Part shown: in pieces, positions 2,882 through 42,669 of the stretch
Position numbering within the stretch: the first letter of the stretch is position 1
Layout of the letters: each line of letters opens with the position of its first letter
Assembly: GCA_002069705.1 (NCBI GenBank)
Contig: MWBV01000001.1
Location: forward strand, 85,768 to 128,436
From: Candidatus Diapherotrites archaeon ADurb.Bin253
Lineage (GTDB): Archaea > Nanobdellota > Nanobdellia > Pacearchaeales > GW2011-AR1
Reading direction: 5' to 3'
Length of the DNA: 42,669 bases
Position numbers and translations under genes: made by a program
The notes under the pieces: generated by a model
Databases searched by the model: none
The model's input: the letters and a program-made list of their open reading frames with translations, nothing else
Told to the model about the DNA's origin: nothing

Positions 2882-5071
2882 ATGCAGCCAAATAAAAAAC
2901 CAACAGTAGACGAAATTCTTAAAAAATATAAGGATAAGATAGAAGGTCAAATAAAAACAACAGATATTGGTTCATTTAAAGAAAGTAAATCTTATACTAA
3001 ATTCAAAGAAGAAACTCAGAAAGAACTCACTACTTATGAAAGATGGTGCAATACTCTTGGAAGTATCATAAAGATGAATCCCTCAAAAAAAGATGAGGAG
3101 AAAATAAGAAGAGACATTGAGATAGCTCACATGAATATTGAACCTTGGCAGGCAATAACTTTGAGTGTGGTGATTTTTGTTCTTGTTTTTTTCATAGGAA
3201 TTCTTTTTTCAGTAGGATATACTTTTATAGGTGAAAGGACTTTAGCTGATTTTCCTTTTATATTCTTTTTTTTAATGATGATGATTGCAATGTTTTTGTT
3301 TTATTATTTTAATGGTTATCCTACCAGATTTGCAAATAAATGGAGATTAAAAGCATCTTCTCAGATGGTTCCAGCAATATTATATGTTGTAGTTTATATG
3401 AGACATACCCCTAATTTGGAAAAGGCAATAGCATTTGCTTCAGAACATCTCCAATATCCTCTTTCATTAGATTTTAAGAAAATATTTTACAATGTTGAAA
3501 TTGGAAAATATTCAACTATAAAAGAAAGTTTAGATAATTATCTTGAAGGATGGAGAGATTATTCAACAGAATTTATTGAAGCATTTCATCTCATAGAAAG
3601 TAGTCTTTATGAGCCAGATAGGGCTAGGAGAATTTCTACTCTTGAAAAAGCAATACAAGTTGTTTTAGATGGGGTCTATACTAAAATGCTTAAATTTACA
3701 CATGATGTTAAAGCGCCACTAACAAATGTGTATATGTTAGCTATAATGCTTCCAATTTTAGGTATAACATTAATTCCTCTTGCTTCTGCTATGGTTTCTG
3801 GGATGGTAAAATGGTCTCATGTATTTATTTTATACACCATAGTAATCCCCTTTCTTGCATTTTTTATGTTAGATAAGATATTGTTGTTGAGACCTGGAGG
3901 ATATGGTGAAACTTCTTATTTAGAGAAAAACCCTCTTTATCCAGAGTTTAAATCAAAAGGACCATATCTTTATGCATTTTTAATTTGTCTTCCTTTTTTG
4001 CTTTTAGGATTATTGCCTTTAATTTTTCAATATACTCCCTTGCCTGACTTATTAGGTCTAGAAAAAGATTATAGTCTTGCGGATTTAGGTTTTTCTTTTG
4101 AAGGAGCTAAAGATACAATGATTTTTGATTTTAAGAAGACCGAAGATGGAGGGCTTGCAGGTCCATTTGGGGGTGTAGCCTTGATTTTAAGTTTATTTTT
4201 TCCATTAGGTGTTGCTTTGTTTTTTTCAATAGCTTATAAAGATAGAACTGCTAATATTATCTTAGAAAGAAACAAGACAAAACAGTTAGAAAATGAGTTT
4301 AATAATTCTTTGTTTCAATTAGGAAATAGGCTTGGAGATGGTGTTCCTCCAGAATTAGTTTTTGGAAAAGTTGCTAATTCTTCAAAGGGTTTGGTTACAG
4401 GGGAGTTTTTTAAGAGAGTTAATTATAATATTCAACAGATGGGTATGAGTGTTGAGAAAGCGATATTTGATTCGCGTAGGGGAGTTATTCTTTTTTATCC
4501 ATCTGATTTAATTGCTACTAGTATGAGGGTTTTAGTTGAGTCTTCTAAAAAAGGACTTGATATAGCTGCTGTTAGTTTAATGAGTATATCAGAGTATGTT
4601 AAAAATATTCAAAAAATAACAGAAAGATTGAAAGATATTTTAGCAGAGATTGTTTCTGAAATGAAGAGTAATATGACTTTCTTAGCTCCTCTGCTTTCAG
4701 GAATTGTTGTCGGTTTAGCTTTAATGATTACTTCTATTCTTAATGTATTAAAAACTTATTTAGATTCTTCTGCAGATGTTGGTTCTGCAGTCAATATGAA
4801 TATTTTGAATATTATGAGAAATTTTGATGTTGTTTCAATGATTCCCCCATACTATCTTCAGATAGCAATAGGGATATATTTAATTGAAGTTATTTTTATC
4901 TTAACTAGTACTTTAGTAACAATAGATTCAGGAGAGGACAAATTAGAAAGAACAAATAAAATTGGACAGAATTTGAAAAAAGGGATTGTATTTTATTTTT
5001 TAACTGCTCTCCTTTCTTCTGTAGCTTTATTTGGTTTAGCAACCATTGTCCTTCAGAATGTAATTGGGTAA
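2882..5071 (+). CDS. Archaeal TadC/FlaJ-like pilus platform membrane protein, two fused T2SSF domains
   Basis: 729 aa. This is the inner-membrane platform of an archaeal type IV filament system; family members sit under the pilus and couple the assembly ATPase to pilin extraction. A charged cytoplasmic N-terminus (about 1-90) is followed by a TM pair near 92-145. The first T2SSF-like helical domain runs about 160-280, with TM helices near 281-335. Another TM near 361-385 and one near 430-455 precede the second T2SSF domain (about 463-600), followed by TM helices near 600, 655 and 700-727. The length fits the doubled archaeal form. A GAGG Shine-Dalgarno-like site at 2873 supports this start. 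The pilin-like genes follow on the same strand. The cognate ATPase is not in the window. Confidence 0.85.
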   Translation: MQPNKKPTVDEILKKYKDKIEGQIKTTDIGSFKESKSYTKFKEETQKELTTYERWCNTLGSIIKMNPSKKDEEKIRRDIEIAHMNIEPWQAITLSVVIFVLVFFIGILFSVGYTFIGERTLADFPFIFFFLMMMIAMFLFYYFNGYPTRFANKWRLKASSQMVPAILYVVVYMRHTPNLEKAIAFASEHLQYPLSLDFKKIFYNVEIGKYSTIKESLDNYLEGWRDYSTEFIEAFHLIESSLYEPDRARRISTLEKAIQVVLDGVYTKMLKFTHDVKAPLTNVYMLAIMLPILGITLIPLASAMVSGMVKWSHVFILYTIVIPFLAFFMLDKILLLRPGGYGETSYLEKNPLYPEFKSKGPYLYAFLICLPFLLLGLLPLIFQYTPLPDLLGLEKDYSLADLGFSFEGAKDTMIFDFKKTEDGGLAGPFGGVALILSLFFPLGVALFFSIAYKDRTANIILERNKTKQLENEFNNSLFQLGNRLGDGVPPELVFGKVANSSKGLVTGEFFKRVNYNIQQMGMSVEKAIFDSRRGVILFYPSDLIATSMRVLVESSKKGLDIAAVSLMSISEYVKNIQKITERLKDILAEIVSEMKSNMTFLAPLLSGIVVGLALMITSILNVLKTYLDSSADVGSAVNMNILNIMRNFDVVSMIPPYYLQIAIGIYLIEVIFILTSTLVTIDSGEDKLERTNKIGQNLKKGIVFYFLTALLSSVALFGLATIVLQNVIG

Positions 5072-5102
5072 ATTTTATTAACTCTGTTTTTTTGTATTTA
5101 AT

Positions 5103-5261
5103 ATGAAAAAGAGGAATAAAAAAGGAGTTATTTCAGAATATTTGCCATGGATTTTAATTGCATTAGTTGTTTTAACCATTGTTCTTATATCTATTTTTTT
5201 CTTGAAAAATGAAGGGATTTCGTTGGTAGATCAAATTAAAAACTTATTTAGGAGAGCTTAA
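5103..5261 (+). CDS. Small pilin-like membrane protein (52 aa)
   Basis: 52 aa. The N-terminus MKKRNKKGVISEYLPW resembles an archaeal class III (prepilin) signal: basic residues, Gly, then a hydrophobic helix (about 13-34), ending in a short basic tail. It is probably cleaved by the prepilin peptidase at 9098 and is either a minor pilin or an assembly subunit. A TATA-like stretch near 5072-5082 sits about 27 bases before the ATG. The stop overlaps the next ATG (TAATG at 5259-5263), which indicates translational coupling. Identification is by position and N-terminal pattern only. Confidence 0.7.
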   Translation: MKKRNKKGVISEYLPWILIALVVLTIVLISIFFLKNEGISLVDQIKNLFRRA

Positions 5262-5425
5262 TGGAACTTACAATCGAAAATCTTATAAAAATTGTCTTGG
5301 GGGTTTTGGTTGTAGTTGCTGTTTCATACGCAGTTTATTATTTTTTTAGTAATAATGTCTTTGATTTTTTCAAGAATTTTGGAGCAAATTCTACTAGTAA
5401 ATTTTTAGCTTCTTTAATAATTTAA
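5261..5425 (+). CDS. Small single-helix membrane protein of the pilus locus (54 aa)
   Basis: 54 aa beginning MELTIENLIKIVLGVLVVV, with a hydrophobic helix at about residues 9-29 and a Phe/Asn/Ser-rich C-terminus. It lacks the basic prepilin motif, so it is more likely a membrane partner than a processed pilin. GGAG at 5251-5254 is a reasonable Shine-Dalgarno site. The ATG shares a base with the upstream stop, and the stop is one base before the ATG at 5427, so it is firmly inside the operon. Confidence 0.65.
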   Translation: MELTIENLIKIVLGVLVVVAVSYAVYYFFSNNVFDFFKNFGANSTSKFLASLII

Positions 5426-5426
5426 T

Positions 5427-5942
5427 ATGGTTAATTTAGAAAAAAATAAAAGAGGGTTTCTTTTAGCAGAAGAAACTTTAAAAGTCATAATCGCAGTAAT
5501 TTGTATACTCTTTTTAGTATATATACTTATGTCAGTATATAATTCCCATAATGCTGATAAAAAGATTATTTTAGCAAAAGAAGTGCTTCTTGGTAAGGAA
5601 GGAGAGAGTGTTCCAGGAATAGAAAGAATTATTTCTTCTTTGGATGATGGAGAGAGCGAGGTTAAAGATATTTCAGACCCAGAAAGATGGCATATTTATA
5701 GTTTTGTTAGAGAAGAAAAGCCAAATAGTTGCTTAGACCAAAAGTGTTTGTGTATATGTGAAGCCTCCTTAATCAAGAAGTTAAATTCTCAAGCAAAGAA
5801 ATGCGATGAAAAAGGGGCTTGTTTAATTGTACCTAATCTTGCTTCAACAGATATAGATATTAAAATAAAGGAGACCAGAAGAAATTTAGTTATTGAAATT
5901 AAAAATAGCGGCGGGAGAATTTTTATAGAGGAAACAAGATGA
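5427..5942 (+). CDS. Pilin-like secreted protein, Cys-rich (171 aa)
   Basis: 171 aa. The N-terminus has basic residues, then RGFLLAEETLK leading into a hydrophobic helix at about 18-38. This is the lollipop layout of a type IV pilin: an N-terminal helix with a soluble extracellular head. The head holds a Cys cluster (C-x4-C-x-C-x-C near 102-111, and two more Cys near 131-138) that probably makes disulfides outside the cell. Cleavage after Gly10 by the prepilin peptidase is an inference. The stop overlaps the next ATG (ATGA at 5939-5942). Confidence 0.7.
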   Translation: MVNLEKNKRGFLLAEETLKVIIAVICILFLVYILMSVYNSHNADKKIILAKEVLLGKEGESVPGIERIISSLDDGESEVKDISDPERWHIYSFVREEKPNSCLDQKCLCICEASLIKKLNSQAKKCDEKGACLIVPNLASTDIDIKIKETRRNLVIEIKNSGGRIFIEETR

Positions 5943-6040
5943 GCTTTGATGAAGTCATAAAATATTTAATATGGATAATCTTTTTTGGGATTGTTTTAGC
6001 AGGGTTGTTTGTTATGCTAAAGAAAACAGGAGTTATTTAA
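5939..6040 (+). CDS. 33-aa single-helix membrane micro-protein
   Basis: 33 aa (start MSFDEVIKYLIWIIFFGIVL, end KKTGVI) consisting almost wholly of one membrane helix. It is wedged between two pilin-like genes: its ATG overlaps the upstream TGA by three bases, and its TAA is one base before the ATG at 6042. The tight coupling on both sides is the main evidence that such a short frame is a real gene. It could be an assembly subunit or a chaperone for the neighbouring pilins; no function is known to me. Confidence 0.6.
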   Translation: MSFDEVIKYLIWIIFFGIVLAGLFVMLKKTGVI

Positions 6041-6041
6041 A

Positions 6042-6965
6042 ATGAGGAATATAAAAGGAGAGATAACAACACAGCAGATTGTTTTAATTGTAATTCTTTT
6101 AGTTAGTTTTATAGTCATTTTATTTTTACTTTTTAGATTGGATTTAGGAAAAGAGTCAGATAAAGAAATTTGCCATAATTCTGTTGTTATGAGGTCTGCA
6201 AGTATATCTAAGGAAGCTATTCCCTTAAAATGTTCTAGAACTTATATTTGTTTAAGTAAAGATGGGAGTTGTGAGAGGATGAGTAGCCCAGATGTTAAAA
6301 AAGTGAAAACCGAAGAAGAAATATATAAAGTTCTTGCAGAAGAGATGGCTGATTGTTGGTGGATGTTTGGAGAAGGAAAATTAGATTATATAGGTAAAGA
6401 TTTTTTCTTGAGGGATAATTATTGTTCAATTTGTTCTCAAGTAGGTTTTGATGATAGTATTAAAGAAATAAATGGGGTTGGAGAAACAATAAGTAAAGAC
6501 AAGCTTTATGATTATTTATCTAAAACAAAAATGCCAGATAGTGAAGTAACTTATTCAGAATATCTTTTTGGGACAAATGATATCAATAAATTAAAAAGTA
6601 CTGCTCTTAAGGTAGATAATGGGAGAGAAATGGTTGTTGGTACTTTTGGAACAATAGATTTAAGCAAACAACATTTTGTTTTAACAGGTATTACCAGTGA
6701 AGTAAAGGGCACGGGGTGGAAAGTTGTTTTTGGACTAGGTGTAGCCGCTGTTGGACTTGTTACAGGATATACTTGGGTTGGCTTAATTTCAGGAGCATTG
6801 ATTATTGGAGCAGGAGTTGTTGGAGAAGGAGTAACTCCAGAGATTAGTGCTATTTTGGTTGAAGGAAATGGTGTTAAAAATACTTTCATGGCTCCTACAA
6901 TTCAAGAAGCAAATTCAAATTCTTTAAAGAAGTTGAATTGTTATGATATACTCACTTCTACTTAG
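6042..6965 (+). CDS. Large pilin-like surface protein (307 aa)
   Basis: 307 aa. The N-terminus MRNIKGEITTQQIVLIVIL has the basic-Gly-then-helix pattern of an archaeal prepilin, with the membrane helix at about 11-30. The head contains scattered Cys (including DCWWMFGEGK and YCSIC) and a Gly/Val-rich hydrophobic stretch near 227-264 that could be a second membrane hairpin or a buried core. It follows the 33-aa gene by one base. It may be a minor or tip pilin. There is no recognisable enzymatic motif. Confidence 0.65.
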   Translation: MRNIKGEITTQQIVLIVILLVSFIVILFLLFRLDLGKESDKEICHNSVVMRSASISKEAIPLKCSRTYICLSKDGSCERMSSPDVKKVKTEEEIYKVLAEEMADCWWMFGEGKLDYIGKDFFLRDNYCSICSQVGFDDSIKEINGVGETISKDKLYDYLSKTKMPDSEVTYSEYLFGTNDINKLKSTALKVDNGREMVVGTFGTIDLSKQHFVLTGITSEVKGTGWKVVFGLGVAAVGLVTGYTWVGLISGALIIGAGVVGEGVTPEISAILVEGNGVKNTFMAPTIQEANSNSLKKLNCYDILTST

Positions 6966-6999
6966 ATAATTTTATTAATTATACTTTCATAATTTTATA

Positions 7000-7416
7000 A
7001 TGAAAAAAAGAGGAGCTATTCTTGTAGAGAATGTAGTTTTTTTAATTTTAAATTTACTTTTTCTTTCTATATTGGTTTTATTCCTAGTGAAACAAGGAAG
7101 TGGTGCAACAGTTTTAGAAGAAGCATATTCAAAACAAATTACAATGGTAATAAATTCTGCTAAACCGGGGATGGTTATTAGATTAGATATGGATAAAGGA
7201 AGAAAAATTGCTGAAGAAAAAGGATTTGATTTTGGAAATTCTGTTATAATAGAAAATAATGTTGTTTATGTTCAACTAACTCCTGATGGGAGATATAGTT
7301 ATGCTTTTTTTAATAATGTAGATGTTTCTTCTAGAGCCCTTAAAGATGAAAAAGGAAAATATTCTGGAACGTATCTTTTTACAGTTAAACCAAAAGGAGG
7401 AAATTTAAATGGATAA
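7000..7416 (+). CDS. Pilin-like protein (138 aa)
   Basis: 138 aa. MKKRGAILVENVVFL carries the basic-Gly motif before a membrane helix at about 9-28, with Glu in the position typical near pilin cleavage sites. The head is short, polar and Cys-free. A TATA-like stretch (TTTATTAATTATAC, about 6970-6985) lies 15-30 bases before the ATG, so it may also have its own promoter. It overlaps the next gene by 8 bases. Confidence 0.65.
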   Translation: MKKRGAILVENVVFLILNLLFLSILVLFLVKQGSGATVLEEAYSKQITMVINSAKPGMVIRLDMDKGRKIAEEKGFDFGNSVIIENNVVYVQLTPDGRYSYAFFNNVDVSSRALKDEKGKYSGTYLFTVKPKGGNLNG

Positions 7417-7948
7417 GAGGGGAACAGATAAAATGCTTTCTATTTATTGGTTTCTGGTATTAACTTTAGTTGCCGGAGGTGTTTTTGCAATGGTATATAT
7501 TTTTTATGGTGCTCCTCATGATGTAAGGGAAATAGAATCTGAATTACTTGCACAAAAGCTTGCAGATTGTATTTCTAAAAGGGGAGTTATTCCTTCTTAT
7601 TTTTTTGTAGGTGAAAGATTTAATGAGAACCTTCTTAAGGGATTTACTGAGAGGTGTAATATAAATTTTGATGTTGAAGAAGATTATGGAGACGAAAATG
7701 AGATACAATATTTTTATAGAGTTAATTTTTATCTGATTAGAGATTTGAATAACCCTGTTTTTAGTGTTTATGATGGCAATCTTAATTGGGAGAGCGAATG
7801 TTATATAAAAAAAGATAATTCTAAAGAATATCAACGACTTGCAAAGTGTACAGAAAGCAGGTTTTATGCTGTTGATAGTAAAGACAACCAGTATTTAATT
7901 AAAATATTATCAGCTATAGGTAAATCAAAGAAAAATGTTAAACAGTAA
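7409..7948 (+). CDS. Pilin-like or membrane-anchored protein of the pilus locus (179 aa)
   Basis: 179 aa with a basic N-terminus (MDKRGTDKMLS) and a membrane helix at about 12-32, then a mostly acidic extracellular head with several Cys (DCISKRG, RCNINF, ECYIKK, KCTES). GGAGG at 7396-7400 gives a strong Shine-Dalgarno site eight bases before the ATG. It overlaps the upstream gene by 8 bases and the downstream one by 14, which indicates coupled translation in one operon. No homologous family is named with confidence. Confidence 0.65.
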   Translation: MDKRGTDKMLSIYWFLVLTLVAGGVFAMVYIFYGAPHDVREIESELLAQKLADCISKRGVIPSYFFVGERFNENLLKGFTERCNINFDVEEDYGDENEIQYFYRVNFYLIRDLNNPVFSVYDGNLNWESECYIKKDNSKEYQRLAKCTESRFYAVDSKDNQYLIKILSAIGKSKKNVKQ

Positions 7949-8195
7949 AAAAGCACAGGTAGGGGAAACAGTTACATGGATAGTTGCCACAATTGTTCTG
8001 ATAGCCATACTTTTAATTTTTATTTTTGCTTCTTCTATATTGGCTAAATCTAAATCACTTAAAGTTAATTTGAAAGCTAATTCAGAAGAAGATGTGAGTT
8101 GGATTGATTCTAAAACACAAATGGCATATTCTTTAAATAATGCGAATAGAAATAAAATAGTTACATGGATTTCTCAAAAGGAGGATTTAGGATAA
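7935..8195 (+). CDS. Small pilin-like protein (86 aa)
   Basis: 86 aa. MLNSKKAQVGETVTWIVA shows a class III signal-like KKAQ motif followed by a membrane helix (about 13-36) and a short Ser/Asn-rich head. The pattern of Lys-Lys-Ala-Gln directly before the helix is the same as in the 8570 gene. It is the best prepilin candidate in this part of the operon. The start overlaps the previous gene. Confidence 0.7.
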   Translation: MLNSKKAQVGETVTWIVATIVLIAILLIFIFASSILAKSKSLKVNLKANSEEDVSWIDSKTQMAYSLNNANRNKIVTWISQKEDLG

Positions 8196-8196
8196 T

Positions 8197-8511
8197 ATGG
8201 AACTTCAAAAAAATAGCTATTCTAAAAATTTTAAGGGAGATAAAAAGGGAGATATACCTGTAACTGTTTTAATTATAGGGGTTTTTGGAGTGTGTATTTT
8301 AGCAATGGTTACTTTTATCGCTTCTTCTTATAGGATAAACATATCTCTTATTGGAGTTGAGATAATGGAAAAAGCAAATATTCAAATTGAATCAGATAAT
8401 CCTAGTCATTTATTTTTATATAAAAAAGTTACAAAATTTTCTCCAGAATGGGGATTTAATTGGTTTAAAGAAAAAGTAATCTTTTCTGTAGAATATAACC
8501 CGCGCCCATGA
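8197..8511 (+). CDS. Pilin-like protein, last gene of the first pilin run (104 aa)
   Basis: 104 aa. An 18-residue basic, polar N-terminus ends in KKGD before a hydrophobic helix at about 21-43; a short head follows. GGAGG at 8180-8184 precedes the ATG by 12 bases, and the upstream stop is one base away. The basic leader is longer than in its neighbours, but it still fits a prepilin leader peptide cleaved after Gly. Confidence 0.65.
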   Translation: MELQKNSYSKNFKGDKKGDIPVTVLIIGVFGVCILAMVTFIASSYRINISLIGVEIMEKANIQIESDNPSHLFLYKKVTKFSPEWGFNWFKEKVIFSVEYNPRP

Positions 8512-8520
8512 AAGAAAGAT

Positions 8521-8560
8521 TTTTAAATAGAGATTGAGTAATTAGATTACTCGAATTCGA
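8521..8560 (+). promoter_or_regulatory. Promoter of the 8570 pilin with composite dyad operator
   Basis: A TATA-like TTTTAAATAG (8521-8530) is followed by a perfect inverted repeat, GAGTAAT (8536-8542) and ATTACTC (8546-8552) with a 3-base loop. Overlapping it is the 10-bp palindrome TCGAATTCGA (8551-8560). The dyad covers the region where the transcript should start, 25 bases after the TATA element, which is a classic place for an archaeal repressor site. No other gene in the window has such a strong dyad in its promoter. Confidence 0.5.
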
Positions 8561-8569
8561 AAAAAGAAG

Positions 8570-8905
8570 ATGATAAACAAAAAAGCTCAGGGTTTGAGCA
8601 CAAGCACAATAATTTTGTTGGTTTTAGGAATAATTATTTTAGTTGTTTTAGTTTTAGGTTTTAGGTCAGGGTGGAAACCCTTGAGTGAATTGATGGGAGG
8701 AAAAAATAATTTAGACACAATTGCTACTTCATGTAATTCTGCTTGTACAACAAGTTCTAAGTATAATTATTGTTCTGTAATGAAAGAAGTTAAAGATGGG
8801 AAGAATCCTAAATTTGAAGCCACCTGTAATGATTTAGCTACTAACCCTGTATACACTTCAAGAAATTATGGAATTCCAACTTGTCCCGGTCTATGTACTG
8901 ATTAA
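8570..8905 (+). CDS. Probable major pilin (111 aa)
   Basis: 111 aa. MINKKAQGLSTSTIILLVL is a textbook archaeal class III signal: short basic leader, KKAQG, Ser/Thr, then a strongly hydrophobic helix (about 12-31). The small head carries three Cys pairs (C-x3-C, C-x-x-x and a C-terminal CPGLC) that could form disulfides. It has its own promoter with a dyad element, unlike the upstream pilin genes, which suggests separate and probably higher expression, as expected for a major filament subunit. The major role is inferred. Confidence 0.75.
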   Translation: MINKKAQGLSTSTIILLVLGIIILVVLVLGFRSGWKPLSELMGGKNNLDTIATSCNSACTTSSKYNYCSVMKEVKDGKNPKFEATCNDLATNPVYTSRNYGIPTCPGLCTD

Positions 8906-8921
8906 ATTTTTTTAATTTAAA

Positions 8922-9035
8922 ATGTCTAATCACGCTAATTCTGAAAGAAGAAACAAAAGCAAAGATAAAAGGAAGGAAAAGAAAAAACATCCTTATAGAA
9001 AAGGTGGAAAATATAGGGTTGTTAGCCTTAAGTAA
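8922..9035 (+). CDS. 37-aa highly basic protein
   Basis: 37 aa. It begins MSNHANSERRNKSKDKRK and ends RKGGKYRVVSLK; nearly half the residues are Lys or Arg. It starts 16 bases after the 8570 pilin stop and lies in frame as a complete ATG-TAA unit. The composition suggests a nucleic-acid-binding or ribosome-associated mini-protein rather than a filament subunit. There are no Cys, so it is not a zinc ribbon. It could be a chance ORF, but its Lys/Arg content is out of line with random AT-rich sequence. Confidence 0.45.
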   Translation: MSNHANSERRNKSKDKRKEKKKHPYRKGGKYRVVSLK

Positions 9036-9067
9036 ATTTTCTGTATAAATTTAGTTGATTTGATAGG

Positions 9068-9077
9068 TTTATAAATT
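9068..9077 (+). promoter_or_regulatory. TATA element for the prepilin peptidase gene
   Basis: TTTATAAATT is centred about 26 bases before the ATG at 9098, so the transcript should be leaderless or nearly so. The upstream sequence is T- and A-rich without another gene. Confidence 0.6.
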
Positions 9078-9097
9078 AAACTTGCTATTTTTTATTA

Positions 9098-9916
9098 ATG
9101 GCTTTAAAAGAGGTGTTTTTAATAGTTTTATGTTTAATCTGGATAGCTTTTGCAGTTATTCAGGATTTAAGAAAAAGAGAGATAGCAAATTGGCTTAATT
9201 TTTCCCTTATTATTTTTGCGATTGTATTTAGATTTTTTTTCTCTTTATTCTCTGAAGAGGGATTTGGTTTTTTTTATCAAGGTTTAATTGGTTTTGCTAT
9301 CTTTTTTGTAATTGGGAATATGCTTTACTATGGAAGAGTTTTTGCAGGAGGAGATGCCAAATTAATGATTGCTCTTGGAGCAATTATACCCTTATCTAAT
9401 AATTTTCCAGAAAATTTGAATATCATGCTTAAGTTCCTTTTACTTTTCTTAGTTTCTGGAGCATTATATGGGATTATATTTGGAGTAGCTTTGGGATTAA
9501 AAGATAAAAAGAAATTTTCCAAAGATTTTGCCTCGCGCTTTAAAAAACATAAAAAGATTTTCTATATATCTATAATTGTAAGTACAGTTTTTTTAGTTCT
9601 TTCTTTTGTTGAGAGTTTATTTTTATATTTGGGTATCCTTTTTTTCATCTCTCCTTATATTTACTTTTTTGCTAAATCTATAGATGAATCTTGCATGGTT
9701 AAAAAAGTCAATACAAAAGAACTTACTGAAGGAGATTGGTTGTATAAAGATGTTAAAATAGGAAAGAGAGTTATTGAAGCACATTGGGAGGGATTGAGCT
9801 TATCTGAAATACAATTTTTAAGAAAAAATATGAAGTTTGTTTCAATAAGACAAGGCATACCCTTTAGTCCTGTTTTTTTAATTAGCTATTTTGCCTTAAT
9901 TATATTTTTTATTTAA
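9098..9916 (+). CDS. Prepilin peptidase, A24 family aspartic protease
   Basis: 272 aa polytopic membrane protease that cuts class III signal peptides from archaeal pilins on the cytoplasmic side. Both catalytic aspartates are visible: Asp23 in IQDLRKREIANWLN and Asp86 in the GxGD-like motif FAGGDAKLM. About seven hydrophobic segments are spread over the protein. The C-terminal 80 residues (with EGDWLYKDVKIGK near 207) form an extra soluble part before a last helix, as in some archaeal CpaA/EppA relatives. It directly follows the pilin genes and is presumably their processing enzyme. Its 3' end overlaps the convergent HIT gene by 4 bases. Confidence 0.9.
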   Translation: MALKEVFLIVLCLIWIAFAVIQDLRKREIANWLNFSLIIFAIVFRFFFSLFSEEGFGFFYQGLIGFAIFFVIGNMLYYGRVFAGGDAKLMIALGAIIPLSNNFPENLNIMLKFLLLFLVSGALYGIIFGVALGLKDKKKFSKDFASRFKKHKKIFYISIIVSTVFLVLSFVESLFLYLGILFFISPYIYFFAKSIDESCMVKKVNTKELTEGDWLYKDVKIGKRVIEAHWEGLSLSEIQFLRKNMKFVSIRQGIPFSPVFLISYFALIIFFI

Positions 9917-33464: not shown

Positions 33465-35312
33465 ATGAGGTTTAAAAGAGGGCAAGTCACTATTTTTATT
33501 ATTTTAGCAATATTAATTGTTGCAGGAGCTTTTTTGGTTTTTGTTTTTAAAGATAGCTTATTTAACAAGGGCAGTCTTCCTTCTGAAATTGAACCTATTT
33601 ATACTACTTTTATAAGTTGTTTAGAACAAGATTTAGAACGTGGTGTTAAAATTTTAGAAAGCCAAGGAGGATATATTTTTTTACCTGAGTATGAAGACGG
33701 TTCAGAGTACATGCCCTTTTCTTCACAATTAGATTTTTTAGGCAATCCTATTCCGTATTGGTACTATATATCTGGAAATGGTATTCCTAGAACACAAGTT
33801 CCATCAAAGGATTCTATGGAAAAAAATTTGGAAATGTTTATGGAAACAAAATCTAGGGCTTGTTTTTTTGATGATTATTATTCACAAGGATATTGGATAG
33901 ATATGGAAAAACCAAAAGCAAAAATAACAATAAAAGACCATGAAGTTGTTTTGGATTTGAAGATGGATTTAATAATTTCAAGAGAAAATGAAAATCATGT
34001 GATTAAAGAACATAAAGTTGTTCTTGATTCTGAGCTTGGTTCTCTTTATGAATCTGCAATTAAAGTTTATGAAGAAGAGCAAAGTAGTTTATTTTTGGAA
34101 GATTATGCAATAGATATATTAAGATTATATGCTCCTGTTGATGGGTTTGAGTTAACTTGTTCTCCTAAGGTGTGGATAGCTAATGAAATATTTAGAGACC
34201 TGAGAGAAGCAATAGAAGCAAATACTTTGGCCTTAAAAAATTCAAACAATAAAGAAGATTATTTTGAAGTTGAGATTTCAGATATTCCTTCAAATCATAG
34301 AGTTAGGTTTTTGAATTCTAAAGATTGGACTTATAGTTTTGAAGTTAATCCTTCTGATGGTCCTGTTATGACTGCAAATCCTGTTGGAAATCAACCAGGA
34401 TTAGATATTTTAGGTTTTTGTTATGTTCCTTATCATTTTGTTTATAGTCTTAGATATCCTGTATTAATTCAGATTATTTCAGGAAAAGGTTCAGAAGAAA
34501 TCTTTCAATTTCCTATGGCAGTGGTAATTGAGAGGAATCTACCGAGAAATGCTTCTGGAGAATCAGTTCCTTTAATTGATTCTCAAGAATTATGTACAAA
34601 TAAAAATACTTACATGAATATACAGGTGTATGATACAAATTTGAAACCTATTGAAGCTTATGTTTCTTATTCTTGCTTAGGTTCTACTTGTAGCATCGGA
34701 ACAACTAAAAACGGGAGAATTTCTGAAAAATTCCCTCAATGTATTAATGGATTTATCAATGTTAAATCAGAGGGATATAAGCCAGAAAGTATTATGTATT
34801 CTACAGTTAAGGAGGGAGTAATGAGTGTTTATTTAAGTAAGTTGTATAATCTCAGTGTTCAACTTAAATTAAATAATCAAAATTATAATCGTGATGCGAT
34901 AATTTATTTTGTTTCAGATGATTTTTCAAAGACGATATATTATCCAAGACAAAAGTATGTTGAATTGGCAGAGGGGGAATATGAGGTGCAAGTTTATGTA
35001 TATAAGAATTCTAATCTTAAGATAGAGAATATGACTCAAAAGCAGTGTGTTGAAGTTCCTCGTTCATCAATAGGAGGATTAATTGGTTTGACAAAAGAAG
35101 TTTGTTTTGATGTTCAAGTTCCTGCACAGACTCTTTCAAATGCTCTTTCAGCAGGAGGGAAACTCAATTATACTTTCTCTGAGAATCAATTGAGAGGTTC
35201 AAGAGTTATTGATATTTATGCAGAGACTCTTCCAGAACCAAATACTCTTGAACAAATTCAAAAGAATTATAATTTATTTGAAAACAAGGAGTTGAAAATA
35301 AACTTAAGATGA
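33465..35312 (+). CDS. Pilin-like surface protein with PEGA-like C-terminal region (615 aa)
   Basis: 615 aa. MRFKRGQVTIFIILAILIV is a basic leader plus an N-terminal membrane helix (about 8-28) of the class III/pilin type, with Gly-Gln at the expected cleavage point. The large outer part is beta-rich and contains Cys (TTFISCLEQ, SRACFFDD, ELTCSPK, GFCYVPYH). Near 390-440 it has CTNKNTYMNIQVYD and a segment with the strand pattern of PEGA-type sandwich domains. A further beta domain ends near residue 600. The stop overlaps the giant gene's ATG (ATGA at 35309-35312), so the two are translationally coupled and their products likely act together on the cell surface. PEGA similarity is weak. Confidence 0.75.
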   Translation: MRFKRGQVTIFIILAILIVAGAFLVFVFKDSLFNKGSLPSEIEPIYTTFISCLEQDLERGVKILESQGGYIFLPEYEDGSEYMPFSSQLDFLGNPIPYWYYISGNGIPRTQVPSKDSMEKNLEMFMETKSRACFFDDYYSQGYWIDMEKPKAKITIKDHEVVLDLKMDLIISRENENHVIKEHKVVLDSELGSLYESAIKVYEEEQSSLFLEDYAIDILRLYAPVDGFELTCSPKVWIANEIFRDLREAIEANTLALKNSNNKEDYFEVEISDIPSNHRVRFLNSKDWTYSFEVNPSDGPVMTANPVGNQPGLDILGFCYVPYHFVYSLRYPVLIQIISGKGSEEIFQFPMAVVIERNLPRNASGESVPLIDSQELCTNKNTYMNIQVYDTNLKPIEAYVSYSCLGSTCSIGTTKNGRISEKFPQCINGFINVKSEGYKPESIMYSTVKEGVMSVYLSKLYNLSVQLKLNNQNYNRDAIIYFVSDDFSKTIYYPRQKYVELAEGEYEVQVYVYKNSNLKIENMTQKQCVEVPRSSIGGLIGLTKEVCFDVQVPAQTLSNALSAGGKLNYTFSENQLRGSRVIDIYAETLPEPNTLEQIQKNYNLFENKELKINLR

Positions 35313-38300
35313 AAAAAATAAATCAATCATTTAAGATTTTAATTTTCTTTTTATTTGGAATATTATTATTTGTTCCTTTGATAAATGCAGTATATACAGA
35401 ATCTCTTACTTATTCCAGTAAGTATAATAGGGCTATAGGACAGGGAGTTTTTTCTACTGGAGAGAGCCTTAGAATAGATGAATCTATGTGTCAACAGGGA
35501 ACAGATTTTATTATACAAATAAATCCTTTAGAATGTATTCCTTCTCCTGTTAGGAGCGATTTATTAGAAGAAGAAAATGTTAATGTATTCTGTAAACTTA
35601 CTGCAATAAAAATTAATCCATTTATTGAAGTTACAGATGTAGATGGTATTAGATTTGATAGAGAATATCCTAGAGAAGTTTTGAATATTGGTTATCAACC
35701 TGCTCAAGCAGCATTAGGATATACTGGAGATAATCTAGATGGTTCACTTATTAATAATAATTTTGGATATGTTGTGATTACATTAAGAAGACAACCTAAT
35801 GAATCTGCTTTAACTAATTGTGAAAAAGCAGCTTTTGGATTGTCTGAGGTTTGTTGGGTTGAAGGGAACATCACAGCTACACTGAGGTATGATGTTAGAA
35901 ATTCATTTGGATTAGGTAATGCAGAATTTTATCTTCCTGTTATGAACGATAAAGAATGGGAAGATAATTATCTATATTATGGTTTTTGGGATGGTAGAGG
36001 ATATTTGAGAGCAGAATCAGTTACAGAGGACAGTGCGATTCTTTCTATTTATTCTGCTAGTTCTGTTGCAAGACCTTCTGGAAAAGGAGGATTTGATTAT
36101 AGATTGGCAAGATATGCCTCAAACATTAAACTTGGTGTTGGAGATTCTTCAAGAAAGATATTTTTGCCTGGAATAAATCCTTGTTTAGGAAATCTACAAT
36201 TAACTTTACATGGAATAGAGCGTCCTGATACTGCTGTGATGTTTAAAGTAAACGGAGATTATGTAGAAGTAAGAAAAGATGGGAAATTTCTAGATGAAAG
36301 ATGTACTGTTATAGATATTTTTAAAACTGGTTTAAGCTCTCAAGTTAAAATAAGATGTAAAGAGAAGAAACAAAAAGTTTATACCTTAAGTTTATCTCCA
36401 CAAGTTAATTTGAGTTTAGATGGAGGAAATCCTAAAGAATATAGTATTGGAGATTTTTTATATGGATATACTGATTCTAAAGGACAGTATCAAAAAGTTT
36501 ATTTAGGATATATAGGAAGTGATGGAAATGAAGAGGATTTAAATGATTTATATGTTATACTTGTTTCTTTACCTATTTCTGAAAATATCAAGAAAAATTC
36601 TTTGGATGAAGAAGAGCTTTATTTTATTGCAAGTTATGCTGAAGCCAAGGACGGGTTTTTAAGTAATCTTGGGGTAAATACAGTCCGTTTCTTTAAGTGG
36701 GCTATTACAGGAGAATCTTTTAAAGTTGTTCCATATAAAAATAAAAAAACTGGAGCAATTTCTGAAGGTATTGAATTTGCAGACAAAAAAGTTGCACTTA
36801 GAGGATTTGCAGTAGGAAATTACCTTGATGTAGTTCAGAGTGATGAAGAACTTTATCAAAGTTATTATGATTCTGCTATAGAGGATTTTGAAAAAGTTAT
36901 AGATAGTTATTCAAATGAGAGAGAGTATGAAAGTGATATACAAGATTTTGGAGAGAGAGCATTAATAGAGGAAATTTATTTGGCTGAATCTGTTAAAGAA
37001 ATGAGAACAGTTTTGGAATTATGTAAAAAATTTAATGAAGAATATCCTAACTCTCAAGCAAGAATTGGAATATGTGATAGTAATATTTTACTTTCAAACA
37101 ATAAAGCTTCAATAGTTGAAGTAACTATAAATGATATTACTAATAGAATTTCTTTTTTGGGAGTTAAAGAGCCAAGTTTAGAAGAATATAATGCAGAAGT
37201 AGTTGTTAAAGGTCCTAATGGTAGAACAGAGAGATATAATTTAAGAAAGAATAAACAAATTCCTTTAATTGGATTTAGAACAGAGGAAGATACACAGAAA
37301 TTAGATTCTGGAGAATATATTTTATTAGAATCTTTAGATACAGGTTCTGCACAAATAACTTTTGCTGTTGGCAAAACAACTACAAATAATAAAGGAGATA
37401 AAGAGATTACTGTTTCTACAAAATCTGAAAAATTGAATTTAAATGTTCAGAGGCCAGATATAGGGGATTATTCTTTTACACTTGTAGATACAACTCTTGC
37501 AAGTGTTGCTAAAGTTTCTATTGATTCAAATATTGAGAGAGCTATAAGTAATTCTAGTTTTAAATTTAAAATAGGAATTGAAAAAAGAGCAATAAAACTT
37601 GCACCAGATAAAACAAAAGAGAAATTAAGAGAATTAGAAAAAAGAATAGATGATTTAACAAAAATATCTAGCACTTTAGATTCAATAAATAGGGGAATGA
37701 AATTCGCTTGTGGAGCTACGGGTGCTGGATTGGTTGTTAAGAATTTGATTGCGAATAGAAATGGTAAAGCAATAGCCAGAGAAAAAGTAATGGCTGGTAC
37801 AGGAGGATGGAATGAAAAATGTCAAGAAGATTATAATAGTGGTTTATATAAATATAAATCAGTTGAGGATTGTTTATTAGATAATGCTGAGGAGATTGAA
37901 AAAGAAGTTGAAGATATGGCAAACATTATCTCCCAACAAAATAATAAAATAAGAGAATTAGAAGCCACATATACAAAAGATGGAAAACTGAATGAAAAGC
38001 TTTTTATGGTTAGCTATTCTAATCATGTTTATAATTCTGTTGATAATTCTTTATCTAAGATGGATAGAAATTCTTTGATTTCTTTGACTGAGTCTTTACA
38101 TAAGGATTCTTTAAGTCCAGATGAAATAATGGGAATGAGTGAAGAGAAGATGATTGAATTGAACAGACAGAAGATTCAAAGTATACTTAATAACAGGGGA
38201 ACTTCAGAAAGCAAATATGGTACAGATTATTTAGTTTCTGAGGGAGCATTTACAGTTAATGAATTAAAAGAAATAGAGCTTTATGCTACTTATTTGAATA

Positions 38301-41300
38301 AGAATAGTGGAGATATAGAAGCTTCTTCAAGATTGAGTTCTGCAATGTCTAAGATTGGGATTAATTCAGATAAATATCTTAATGCATTAGAAACAGCAAA
38401 AACATTAGGGGGAGTTAATCCTTCACATATTGTCTATATAGAACTTAAAGATGAAAATGCTGTTAAATATGATTATAGGGGAAATACAAAAGGAAACACA
38501 AAAACTAATTTACCTGATACAATTCCTAAAGATACTCCTATCGTTATAACAACAATACCTGCTATAGAAAAAGGAAATCTTGTTTTTGTACTTGAAAAAT
38601 CTAAAGGAAGCGGGGTTTATCCTATAGATAAAGTTTATTATACTGATGGAACAGAGTTTACAGATAAAGAGATTTTAAGTAAATTAAGAAGAGAAGTAAC
38701 TATAGTTAAAAGAGACAGCTTATATAAAAACAGATATCTTTCTTCTTATGGAAGTGCTAAGACAGGACCATTAATTAAATTCTTTGAAAGTTCTTCTCAT
38801 TCTTGTAGGCCTGCACTTGTTCCATTAGACACTCATAATGGATGGTATGCTGGAATGAAATCAGCTGAAATGCCTTATTATAGTGATTCAGGAAGGATTG
38901 AGATGTTTTATCTATGTAATGTTGGAGATAATGGCATAGAAGAATTTTCAGTTAGTGGATTTGGAGATGATTTTTGTACACTTTTAACTGCTGCTGGATT
39001 ATCTAGTTCTCAATTTAGTCAATTAGAGGGGAAATCAATTCAAGATTATTTTGATTTAGCTGTTAGGTCAATAGCGCAAGCACAGCAAACATGTATGAGA
39101 GGAATATCTCCTGGAAGTTCTGTAAATATAAATGGTAATTCTTTGAATATTGGAGAGCCTCCTTCTGAAGATTTTGGATTTAGGTGTACTGATTTTATGT
39201 CTGTTAAAGATTGTAATCTTTTGTTTAATTTGTGTGACCCTGTTATTTGTCCAAGCTCAAGATGCGATCTTGGAGGAAAATATCCTGTTAAGAATGTTAT
39301 TAGTTCTGGAATAATTGGAAGTATATTTTTGTGTTTACCTAATTGGAAAGTTACTGGAGGAGATGTTTATATTCCTGTTTGTTTAACAGGAGTTCAAGCA
39401 GGTATAGATAATTTTATTTCTGTTCAGAAAGCATATTCAGAGTGCCTTGAAAAAAGCTTAGAGACAGGAGAAACCATCGGTATTTGTGATGAAATACATA
39501 GTATTTATCTTTGTAGTTTCTTTTGGGAGCAGGCAACTCCTATAATAAAATACTTTGGTTCTCATTTATTGGAGAGAATTTTAGGACAAAAATCTCAAGG
39601 TGGTGGAGAGTATAAAGGATTTGCTTCTGCTTTAAAAAATTCTCAAAATACTGTAGATTATCTTAAGAATTATTATGCTAAAGAGTCCTATAGAGCTTTC
39701 CAAGTTCGTTCAATGGATACTGTAGGTACAAAAGCTTGTGGGAGATTTGTTTCTGCAGTTTATGCAGATTCTGGAAGTTTTATTAGTAATTTAATTGCCC
39801 CTGATTCTCCCTCACAATTTACAGGTAAATTTGAAGAGATACCTTTAACAACATCTACAAATCCTCCTACTTCTCATTACAAGGTTTGGTATCATATTTA
39901 TGCTGGAAAAGATTCTGGAGCTTATTACAGAGTTTATCTTAGAGGTTCTGCAAGCAATTATTATATGGATAATGTTCAGAGGAGAGTTGTTAATTCAAGT
40001 TATATCCCTAAAGGAGGATATGCTGACGCTACTATTGACTTTACTGCTCCTGCAGGTTATAGGGAATTGTGTATTGAGGTTAATGGTGTAGAGGAATGCG
40101 GATTCAAGGAAGTTTCAACTTCTTTTTCTGTTAATTATTTAAGTGATTTGTTTTTGAAGGACCAAGTTAAAAAGAAGAATATTGATTCAGAAGAGGATTG
40201 TAGGTCTGGAACAGCTAGCATTTACAGTCTTTTAGATTTAAATGTTTTGAGTGCAGCTGAAAATTTAATTAATCCTGATTTATATGCTCAGGGTATAACA
40301 AGAGTTTGTTCTACTCATAATCCAGGACTAGGACCAGAAGTTAGTTCTTATGATTCAGAAGATTTAAGATGGCAAAAAGTTGGACATTGTGGTGATGAGA
40401 GAGTTGGATGTTGGATTGATACAGAAAGTGTTAGAAAAGCAATCAAAAATCTTAATTTAGAAGAAGATGCAATTGAAAGTATTAAAGATGAAACTTTATC
40501 TTATCTTTCTGAAGATTATTTTACTCAAAAAGAATTTGAAGCCAAGAAAAAAGATATTCAAAGTGAAGATGACCCATTAAAGAGAATAGATTTAATTGAT
40601 TCTATTTTTGAAATTGACAAAATCTTCTTTAATAATCATAAAGCATATTTATTTTTCTGGAGAGGAAAATCTTATGCTCAATTAGCAATGAATAATTTTG
40701 GAAAATGTGCAACCAATGGAAATACTAAATGTGAAGGAACAACACACTTTGTTTGTGAAGATAATAAATGGGTAAACAAAGGGCAAGTTAATGGAAAATG
40801 TGGTTATGTTGAAGATTCAACTACAACATCTGGAGGAGATTCGTGGTTCAATATAAAATATACTTCACCACATCTTCTTCCTAGTGATAAAAATATTCTT
40901 ACACTAGATGATAGGTGCTATAGATACTTTAATTCCAAATGGCAATTTGCAATTTCATGTGATCCTACAGTTGCTTGGTTTAATGTAGATGTTTTAGGTA
41001 ATGAGTATACAAACCCTGTTTCTAAAAGAAGTAAAGAAATTATTACTTCTCTTCAAAATTACAATGGAGATTATGTTGGAGGATTAAAGGTTCTTATAGA
41101 TAAAACTATGGAAGATAGAAATGCAAAGCTTTCAGAAAAAACATTTAAAGTTTCTAGTATGGACGAAGAAGGATTATTCACTGTTAAATTTAAGGATGTC
41201 AATTATGAACCTATGAAAAAAATTTATTATAAATATGAAAATGGAGAGTGGTATTGGGAATTAGATAAGATGTTTGAGGGAGGAGGGGTTCGACATAGTG

Positions 41301-42669
41301 TTTCAAATGTTGCTCCTGGATTTAATAATCTACAAAAAGCTATTGTGCTTGCATTAGAAGGAAAGACATTTTATGATGGAGCAGCAATATTATTTAATCC
41401 AACTTCAAAAGATATTCAAGAAAGATATTTTGTAGGTGGTTCTTCAACTACCTCTGTTGCAACTTCTTTGGAAGCTAATCTTCAAAAAAGAGATTTAGAT
41501 AAGGTGACTAAATTAATGAAAGATCTTTCTTCATCTGTTTATGCTTCTACCTTTAAGTGTTATTGCGGTAAAGAATGTGAAAATTATGCAAAATGGATTT
41601 TTGAAGCAGCTAATTCTAACAATATTCCAGATGAACTTCTTTTATTAGCAATTATGATACAAGAATCTTCATGTAAAGCAGTTAAATCTTCTGATGGGGG
41701 AGATATAGGTTTGATGCAAATTAATGTTCTTCATTGTGGCACAAAAGGTCTTAGCAGTAATTCTGGAAATTGTATTTCTACATTATTAAATGATAATGAA
41801 AAAAATATTAAGATTGGTGCTCAGATATTAAAAGAAGCTTATAGTCCTTCAAGCAGAGTTTATACTTGTGTAATGCCTGTAGAGACCTATTTTGGATGGG
41901 AATATGCTTTAAGAGGTTATAATGGGTGGAATACTGATTGTAGCAAAGGAGATATTCATTATGTTAGGAATGTGAAAGAAAAATATTTTGAATTAGTTAG
42001 ATTATATAACGGAGGTACACCAACAACTCCTACCACACCTTCAACTCCTACCACACCAACTACTCCAACAACACCTTCAACCCCTTCAACTTCTGATGTT
42101 TACAAACATATGATGTTTTCTCCTATTAATCCACACAGTAGCGTAGTATTTTATAGGTATAATAATGTTTGGCAATGGAATGTTTATACTAAATCAATTT
42201 CAGATTCTTCTTGGGAATCTGTACCTTTAGATTCTTCTTGGGAATCTGTACCTTCTTATACTATTAAAGGGGGAAGTTATGACGGAAAAACTCTTAATGA
42301 TAAAAATCAGGAATTAATTCTTAAATTGAATGGAAAGAATTACGAAGAGGGATTAAAGATATTAAAAGAATTTGGATTAATAACTTTAGATGGTGATGAA
42401 ATAAGAATACCTTCAATTCCTTCAACAGATTGTGATTATGAAAAGATTAATCCTCCTTGCACATCTTACAAGGATGTTCAACTTTCAATGTTTTCAACTG
42501 TTGAAAGAAAACTCTTTTTGGCTGTTAAAAATTGCGAAGAATGTGGAGATGGTCTTTCTAATTTATGTGATAGAGATGAATGTAAAGCTATTGCTCTTAA
42601 ATTAAATAAGAATTGTGTTCATACAAATCTTGTTTTAGGTTATGGAAAATGTGAGGAGAAATCAAGTAC
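35309..42669 (+). CDS. Giant secreted Cys-rich protein with lytic-transglycosylase-like domain (3' partial)
   Basis: Open for 2453 codons without a stop and continuing past the window. A Sec signal peptide (MKKINQSFKI, hydrophobic core, PLINA with cleavage near 27) starts it. Residues about 770-900 contain coiled-coil-like helices; about 1290-1410 is a Cys-rich block with hydrophobic stretches (CDPVICPSSRCDLGGKYPV, IFLCLPNWKV, GICDEIHSIYLC); about 1525-1610 is a beta domain; about 1793-1835 is a small Cys module ending GKCGYVED. Residues about 2083-2230 match the SLT/goose-lysozyme fold: catalytic Glu2119 in AIMIQESS, GDIGLMQINV, and ALRGYNGWNTDC before YVRNVKEKY. A Thr/Pro linker (about 2237-2266) follows. 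Binding and cleavage targets are unknown. Confidence 0.85.
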   Translation, partial: MKKINQSFKILIFFLFGILLFVPLINAVYTESLTYSSKYNRAIGQGVFSTGESLRIDESMCQQGTDFIIQINPLECIPSPVRSDLLEEENVNVFCKLTAIKINPFIEVTDVDGIRFDREYPREVLNIGYQPAQAALGYTGDNLDGSLINNNFGYVVITLRRQPNESALTNCEKAAFGLSEVCWVEGNITATLRYDVRNSFGLGNAEFYLPVMNDKEWEDNYLYYGFWDGRGYLRAESVTEDSAILSIYSASSVARPSGKGGFDYRLARYASNIKLGVGDSSRKIFLPGINPCLGNLQLTLHGIERPDTAVMFKVNGDYVEVRKDGKFLDERCTVIDIFKTGLSSQVKIRCKEKKQKVYTLSLSPQVNLSLDGGNPKEYSIGDFLYGYTDSKGQYQKVYLGYIGSDGNEEDLNDLYVILVSLPISENIKKNSLDEEELYFIASYAEAKDGFLSNLGVNTVRFFKWAITGESFKVVPYKNKKTGAISEGIEFADKKVALRGFAVGNYLDVVQSDEELYQSYYDSAIEDFEKVIDSYSNEREYESDIQDFGERALIEEIYLAESVKEMRTVLELCKKFNEEYPNSQARIGICDSNILLSNNKASIVEVTINDITNRISFLGVKEPSLEEYNAEVVVKGPNGRTERYNLRKNKQIPLIGFRTEEDTQKLDSGEYILLESLDTGSAQITFAVGKTTTNNKGDKEITVSTKSEKLNLNVQRPDIGDYSFTLVDTTLASVAKVSIDSNIERAISNSSFKFKIGIEKRAIKLAPDKTKEKLRELEKRIDDLTKISSTLDSINRGMKFACGATGAGLVVKNLIANRNGKAIAREKVMAGTGGWNEKCQEDYNSGLYKYKSVEDCLLDNAEEIEKEVEDMANIISQQNNKIRELEATYTKDGKLNEKLFMVSYSNHVYNSVDNSLSKMDRNSLISLTESLHKDSLSPDEIMGMSEEKMIELNRQKIQSILNNRGTSESKYGTDYLVSEGAFTVNELKEIELYATYLNKNSGDIEASSRLSSAMSKIGINSDKYLNALETAKTLGGVNPSHIVYIELKDENAVKYDYRGNTKGNTKTNLPDTIPKDTPIVITTIPAIEKGNLVFVLEKSKGSGVYPIDKVYYTDGTEFTDKEILSKLRREVTIVKRDSLYKNRYLSSYGSAKTGPLIKFFESSSHSCRPALVPLDTHNGWYAGMKSAEMPYYSDSGRIEMFYLCNVGDNGIEEFSVSGFGDDFCTLLTAAGLSSSQFSQLEGKSIQDYFDLAVRSIAQAQQTCMRGISPGSSVNINGNSLNIGEPPSEDFGFRCTDFMSVKDCNLLFNLCDPVICPSSRCDLGGKYPVKNVISSGIIGSIFLCLPNWKVTGGDVYIPVCLTGVQAGIDNFISVQKAYSECLEKSLETGETIGICDEIHSIYLCSFFWEQATPIIKYFGSHLLERILGQKSQGGGEYKGFASALKNSQNTVDYLKNYYAKESYRAFQVRSMDTVGTKACGRFVSAVYADSGSFISNLIAPDSPSQFTGKFEEIPLTTSTNPPTSHYKVWYHIYAGKDSGAYYRVYLRGSASNYYMDNVQRRVVNSSYIPKGGYADATIDFTAPAGYRELCIEVNGVEECGFKEVSTSFSVNYLSDLFLKDQVKKKNIDSEEDCRSGTASIYSLLDLNVLSAAENLINPDLYAQGITRVCSTHNPGLGPEVSSYDSEDLRWQKVGHCGDERVGCWIDTESVRKAIKNLNLEEDAIESIKDETLSYLSEDYFTQKEFEAKKKDIQSEDDPLKRIDLIDSIFEIDKIFFNNHKAYLFFWRGKSYAQLAMNNFGKCATNGNTKCEGTTHFVCEDNKWVNKGQVNGKCGYVEDSTTTSGGDSWFNIKYTSPHLLPSDKNILTLDDRCYRYFNSKWQFAISCDPTVAWFNVDVLGNEYTNPVSKRSKEIITSLQNYNGDYVGGLKVLIDKTMEDRNAKLSEKTFKVSSMDEEGLFTVKFKDVNYEPMKKIYYKYENGEWYWELDKMFEGGGVRHSVSNVAPGFNNLQKAIVLALEGKTFYDGAAILFNPTSKDIQERYFVGGSSTTSVATSLEANLQKRDLDKVTKLMKDLSSSVYASTFKCYCGKECENYAKWIFEAANSNNIPDELLLLAIMIQESSCKAVKSSDGGDIGLMQINVLHCGTKGLSSNSGNCISTLLNDNEKNIKIGAQILKEAYSPSSRVYTCVMPVETYFGWEYALRGYNGWNTDCSKGDIHYVRNVKEKYFELVRLYNGGTPTTPTTPSTPTTPTTPTTPSTPSTSDVYKHMMFSPINPHSSVVFYRYNNVWQWNVYTKSISDSSWESVPLDSSWESVPSYTIKGGSYDGKTLNDKNQELILKLNGKNYEEGLKILKEFGLITLDGDEIRIPSIPSTDCDYEKINPPCTSYKDVQLSMFSTVERKLFLAVKNCEECGDGLSNLCDRDECKAIALKLNKNCVHTNLVLGYGKCEEKSS
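42014..42102 (+). repeat. Low-complexity Thr/Pro linker in the giant gene
   Basis: A run of short imperfect repeats of ACT/ACA and CCT/CCA codons encodes a Thr-Pro-rich linker (TPTTPTTPSTPTTP type) directly after the transglycosylase-like domain. Such linkers separate catalytic and binding domains in secreted hydrolases and are common O-glycosylation sites. Confidence 0.8.
42203..42256 (+). repeat. 27-bp tandem duplication in the giant gene
   Basis: Two adjacent copies, 42203-42229 and 42230-42256, are identical for the first 25 bases and differ only in the last two. Each encodes the nonapeptide DSSWESVP plus Leu or Ser. The near identity at DNA level indicates a recent duplication that preserved the reading frame. 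Confidence 0.85.

Follow-up and report, generated by a model that had tools for sequence, protein, structure and literature searches.

The window analysed here is a 42,669-nucleotide stretch from the Pacearchaeales genome Candidatus Diapherotrites archaeon ADurb.Bin253. Its end is also the end of contig C1, and the last gene, which encodes a giant secreted protein, runs off that end without a stop codon. Thus, the protein is at least 2453 residues long, and its C-terminus is missing. Table 1 lists the parts of this gene, the gene directly upstream, and a type IV pilus-like cluster. The upstream gene encodes a partner protein with a pilin-type signal; its stop overlaps the start of the giant gene by 4 bases, and a Pfam search with the partner gave no match. 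Contamination was considered as the source of the giant gene and rejected, because the 128-kb contig also carries genes for RadA, SRP54, FtsY and archaeal ribosomal proteins (named by eye) and because homologs of the giant occur throughout the order.

Table 1. Positions of the features discussed in the text, numbered from the first base of the window.
Feature	Position	Strand	Basis or remark
Type IV pilus-like cluster	2882..9916	+	membrane platform, seven pilin-like genes p1-p7, prepilin peptidase
Pilin-signal partner protein	33465..35312	+	class III signal RGQVTIFIILA; directly upstream of giant
Giant secreted protein, at least 2453 aa	35309..42667	+	ORF list and translation; homologs in order
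Signal peptide, N-terminal, approximate extent	35309..35389	+	hydrophobic segment
Conserved Cys-rich core, aa 1090-1809	38576..40735	+	alignment; probable Ig-like beta-sandwich
W-x-W repeat domain, copy 1	40907..41260	+	iterated profile; hypervariable region before SLT
SLT/GH23 lytic-transglycosylase-like domain, aa 2080-2240	41546..42028	+	Pfam PF01464, AlphaFold model, PDB sequence and fold matches
Codon of catalytic Glu2119, in QESS	41663..41665	+	37/37 invariance; MltC alignment
GLMQIN motif	41708-41725	+	sequence
YNGW motif	41918-41929	+	sequence
YVRNV motif	41960-41974	+	sequence
Thr/Pro-rich linker behind SLT	42017..42097	+	sequence
W-x-W repeat domain, copy 2	42143..42379	+	iterated profile

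Pfam PF01464 matches residues 2097-2188 of the giant; the score of 38.8 bits exceeds the cut-off of 21.3 and, with E 7.8e-10, is far beyond chance. Matches to DUF6792 and to an auxin-repressed protein lie under the cut-off and were disregarded. The AlphaFold model of the domain, built from a 37-row alignment, has a pLDDT of 92.6 and a pTM of 0.88. Its top fold matches in the PDB are MltE, MltF, Slt and the g-type lysozymes, with a probability of 1.00 and an E value of only ~0.002. The best profile match among PDB sequences is MltC (E 7.5e-18), and Glu2119 aligns to the catalytic residue of that enzyme, which is Glu in structure 4c5f and Gln in the mutant structure 4cfo. The position is Glu in 37/37 relatives in the alignment, and the GLMQI strand and the YN motif follow in the expected order. 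The domain therefore belongs to the SLT family by bit score, Glu position, GLMQI/YN order and lysozyme-like fold. The initial annotation had read such a domain from its motifs, together with an N-terminal signal peptide and a Thr/Pro linker behind the domain. All the motifs lie where it placed them and in the right order, both flanking features were located, and the fold and the catalytic Glu, on which its reading depended, are borne out by the model, by the MltC alignment and by the lack of any replacement among the relatives. Lytic transglycosylases cut the MurNAc-GlcNAc glycan strand. The evidence supports the prediction that the SLT domain is an enzyme-competent, lytic transglycosylase-like domain with its catalytic Glu intact.

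Two further SLT genes are found in the same genome (L007:3055-3900 and L006:7060-8040). One has a signal-like N-terminus and the other has membrane segments; both fall in the group of stand-alone SLTs.

The giant itself is nearly universal in the order, with homologs in 171 of 180 genomes. Among the 92 giants whose start is intact, 88 have a hydrophobic N-terminal segment and none has a C-terminal membrane or hydrophobic segment. The core shows 53 invariant columns in a 51-row alignment and also occurs elsewhere in the class, in some of its other families, mostly in large frames. No relative of the core was found by sequence in the PDB; its model has a pLDDT of 69, and the fold search returns only an Ig-like stretch with weak scores.

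The SLT domain, in contrast to the giant, is optional. It occurs in 37 of 101 sampled giant loci, a sample in which nearly all SLT-positive loci were included on purpose. The unselected count places SLT inside a frame of >1000 aa in 49 of 180 genomes of the order, the core having been checked in only part of these frames. At least 15-20 gains or losses of SLT have taken place: its presence on the core tree requires at least 20-21 changes, and 15 are forced by supported branches. The domain is placed in hypervariable regions, mostly C-terminal ones, but L101, L107 and L112 have it internally, after the N-terminal part and before the core. The iterated profile finds 82 copies of the W-x-W repeat domain in 41 of the 101 giants, abundantly at both kinds of SLT site, and in the window giant two copies flank the SLT domain. 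The repeat domain matches no assigned family and may be a binding module.

Other heads occur in place of SLT or beside it. A Pfam scan of 95 giant tails found SLT in 28, M23 in 5, Amidase_3 in 4 and DUF2272 in 2, and ankyrin or leucine-rich repeats in a few. (The ankyrin-type motifs in the variable tails of L076 and L164 are unusual for a secreted archaeal protein.) In individual scans, M23 is the only head in L132 and L161, and Amidase_3 the only head in L128 and L162. SLT and Amidase_3 are found together in L137, and SLT and M23 in L109 and L147; L133 has M23 and Amidase_3, and, by a custom profile, an SLT-like C-terminus as well. Searches for Amidase_3 and M23 across the order agree with the tail scans. 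By eye, the metal ligands are intact in 4/4 Amidase_3 copies and in 2/5 M23 copies; the other 3/5 M23 copies look degenerate. SLT, M23 and Amidase_3 are classes that cut three different types of peptidoglycan bond. Their joint occurrence on giants is the best evidence that peptidoglycan is the substrate.

This head swapping bears on two other readings of the domain. The first takes chitin or some other surface glycan, such as that of an archaeal host, as the substrate of the GH23-fold domain. A GH23-fold chitinase of Ralstonia is indeed among the fold matches, but the best profile match is MltC, and the Amidase_3 and M23 domains in the same tails are established as peptidoglycan-cutting classes; we regard this reading as highly improbable. 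The second is that SLT serves attachment only: it would bind peptidoglycan as an adhesin and catalyse little or nothing. Both binding and degradation were proposed by Castelle et al. 2021 (PMC8204110), and repeats on a surface scaffold would suit an adhesin. This reading is nevertheless very unlikely, as the catalytic Glu is kept in 37/37 relatives and what takes the place of SLT is other, unrelated kinds of hydrolase and not binding domains. Since no hydrolase can be recognised in about 70% of the giants, the scaffold must have some other basic function. For a gene that ranks among the most conserved giant genes in this lineage, head swapping would offer a first clue to function.

Whose peptidoglycan would be cut? 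A search of the genome, which is 88.5% complete, found no Mur ligase, and none of 91 genomes of the order was found to have a PBP transpeptidase, whereas the control genomes were positive. It follows that the substrate is foreign. Bacterial specialised lytic transglycosylases open the wall of their own producer for secretion systems or pili, and a similar self-remodelling role could be imagined here, given weak NCBIfam matches of the window SLT to IagB and MltC and the pilus association seen in relatives (see below). With no wall-synthesis gene detected in either search, the enzyme does not fit the own-wall class, and this reading is close to refuted. The initial annotation had proposed an enzyme acting on bacterial walls, a surface glycan or a partner cell, as a candidate for an undescribed system. 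The foreign wall as target is upheld by the absence of Mur ligase and PBP transpeptidase and by the other peptidoglycan hydrolases in the tails; the claim of novelty is not, in view of Castelle et al. 2021. A point against a bacterial target is that the hosts of cultivated DPANN archaea are archaea, not bacteria (PMC11291902). If our reading is true, a wall-less lineage that swaps peptidoglycan hydrolases onto its surface scaffold and pili likely has bacteria as partners or prey.

The pilus enters in two ways. First, in all 87 loci where this could be tested, the gene immediately upstream of the giant encodes a homolog of the pilin-signal partner (84 by a script rule, three by eye from the N-termini). 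Second, SLT domains are also carried by pilins. A contig scan with the window SLT alone returned one relative, in L008 (= L197) of a named Pacearchaeota MAG, a contig that belongs to G010, a genome of the same order. This closest public relative (L008:1201-2256) is a pilin-like protein that carries SLT at its C-terminus. In all, such fusions are found in the type IV pilus cluster of 11 genomes other than that of the window, with a gene order like that of the window cluster, in which no pilin bears SLT. Gene order and signal motif place SLT at six pilin positions: p0 (L189), p1 (L008), p3 (L190, L195), p4 (L188, L193 and L192, the last with its start missing), p6 (L191, L196) and p7 (L194, L199). 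When six SLT-pilins were scanned with Pfam, four were clearly above the SLT cut-off and one equalled it; the protein from L008, P0003, had only a weak lysozyme-like match, but matched the custom SLT profile with E ~1e-29. A search for reports of an archaeal pilin-borne lytic transglycosylase, targeted and made in a partial literature, found none.

The SLTs of giants and pilins form one clade (SH-aLRT 98), in which pilin rows are interspersed among giant rows. Most stand-alone SLTs and a few giants lie outside it. This common SLT module is the sole link between giant and pilin. Stand-alone M23 and amidase genes are mostly not fused to pilins; an Amidase_3 domain is found on one protein with a pilin-like N-terminus (L220:2983-4038, minus strand, in G124), with an SLT-bearing pilin nearby. 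Giant-SLT and pilin-SLT are both present in only one of the 11 pilin-SLT genomes, where about three would be expected; mutual exclusion was considered on this account and rejected, as the difference is not significant. That SLT is an optional, mobile head common to giant and pilus is a property that could not be seen in the initial annotation from the window alone.

We consider it rather probable that the giant is a surface scaffold, probably connected to the pilus, whose interchangeable peptidoglycan hydrolases are directed at bacteria, either partners or prey. The proposed model is as follows. Pacearchaeota would secrete the giant as a surface scaffold, made together with the upstream pilin-signal protein and probably held at the surface with it. 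Bacterial peptidoglycan would be cut by exchangeable heads seated in the hypervariable regions of the giant. The head in this genome would act as a lytic transglycosylase, with Glu2119 serving as general acid/base in the cleavage of the MurNAc-GlcNAc strand; in relatives the head would be an M23 endopeptidase, an N-acetylmuramoyl-L-alanine amidase, or an SLT borne instead by one of several type IV pilins. Since the archaeon lacks peptidoglycan, the head would act on a contacted bacterium, and local thinning of the wall may lead to attachment, access to nutrients or killing.

A competing proposal is free extracellular scavenging, that is, that the heads release muropeptides from dead wall debris as food and that contact with live cells plays no part. 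Reduced genomes depend on nutrients from outside, Pacearchaeota have been proposed to obtain amino acids from the peptidoglycan of dead cells (PMC11537232), and most relatives are without a head, as might be expected of an accessory nutritional trait. The fusion of the domain to a giant surface scaffold and at six pilin positions, on the other hand, suggests placement at a contact site, and the unfused SLT enzymes present in the same genomes mostly belong to a different clade. On balance, we judge scavenging unlikely. A bolder form of the surface-scaffold model is that the type IV pilus and a pilus-associated giant make up one machine with interchangeable peptidoglycan-cutting heads, carried by the giant or by at least six pilins, that bores into living bacteria; this we offer as a tentative possibility.

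Several known systems bear comparison. The bacterial enzymes MltC, MltE, MltF and Slt70 resemble the giant's SLT in fold, catalytic Glu and GLMQI motif, but they remodel the wall of their own producer, whereas the producer of the giant has no wall. Among archaea, PMC12352652 describes peptidoglycan hydrolases that kill bacteria, with such genes prominent and diverse in Nanoarchaeota. Those enzymes share with the giant SLT an archaeal origin, bacterial peptidoglycan as the target, domain shuffling and patchy distribution. That survey, however, covered only enzymes with a known cell-wall-binding domain, and the ones tested were haloarchaeal M23 enzymes, not SLTs borne by giants or pilins. As far as the parts consulted go, Vigneron et al. 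2022 (PMC9723730) proposed predation on bacteria for the GH23 "large lytic murein transglycosylases" of Woesearchaeota, which are of the same class and from a related lineage; there, they are paired with a TlyC-like toxin, and scaffold and pilin fusions are not treated.

The closest match is fam00969 (module 98) of Castelle et al. 2021, described as comprising extracellular Pacearchaeota and Woesearchaeota proteins that reach 3,000 aa and contain a murein lytic transglycosylase domain. The giant agrees with this description in lineage, size class, secretion and SLT domain and, compared by description, is almost certainly of the same family. The basic finding, a giant protein with SLT, is thus already known from that work and from later papers which, in their relevant passages, repeat or extend it (PMC9723730, PMC10936187, PMC11537232). 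What goes beyond the relevant passages of the fam00969 report is that SLT is optional, that it is swapped with Amidase_3 and M23, that it is also borne by pilins, and that the giant has a constant pilin-signal partner.
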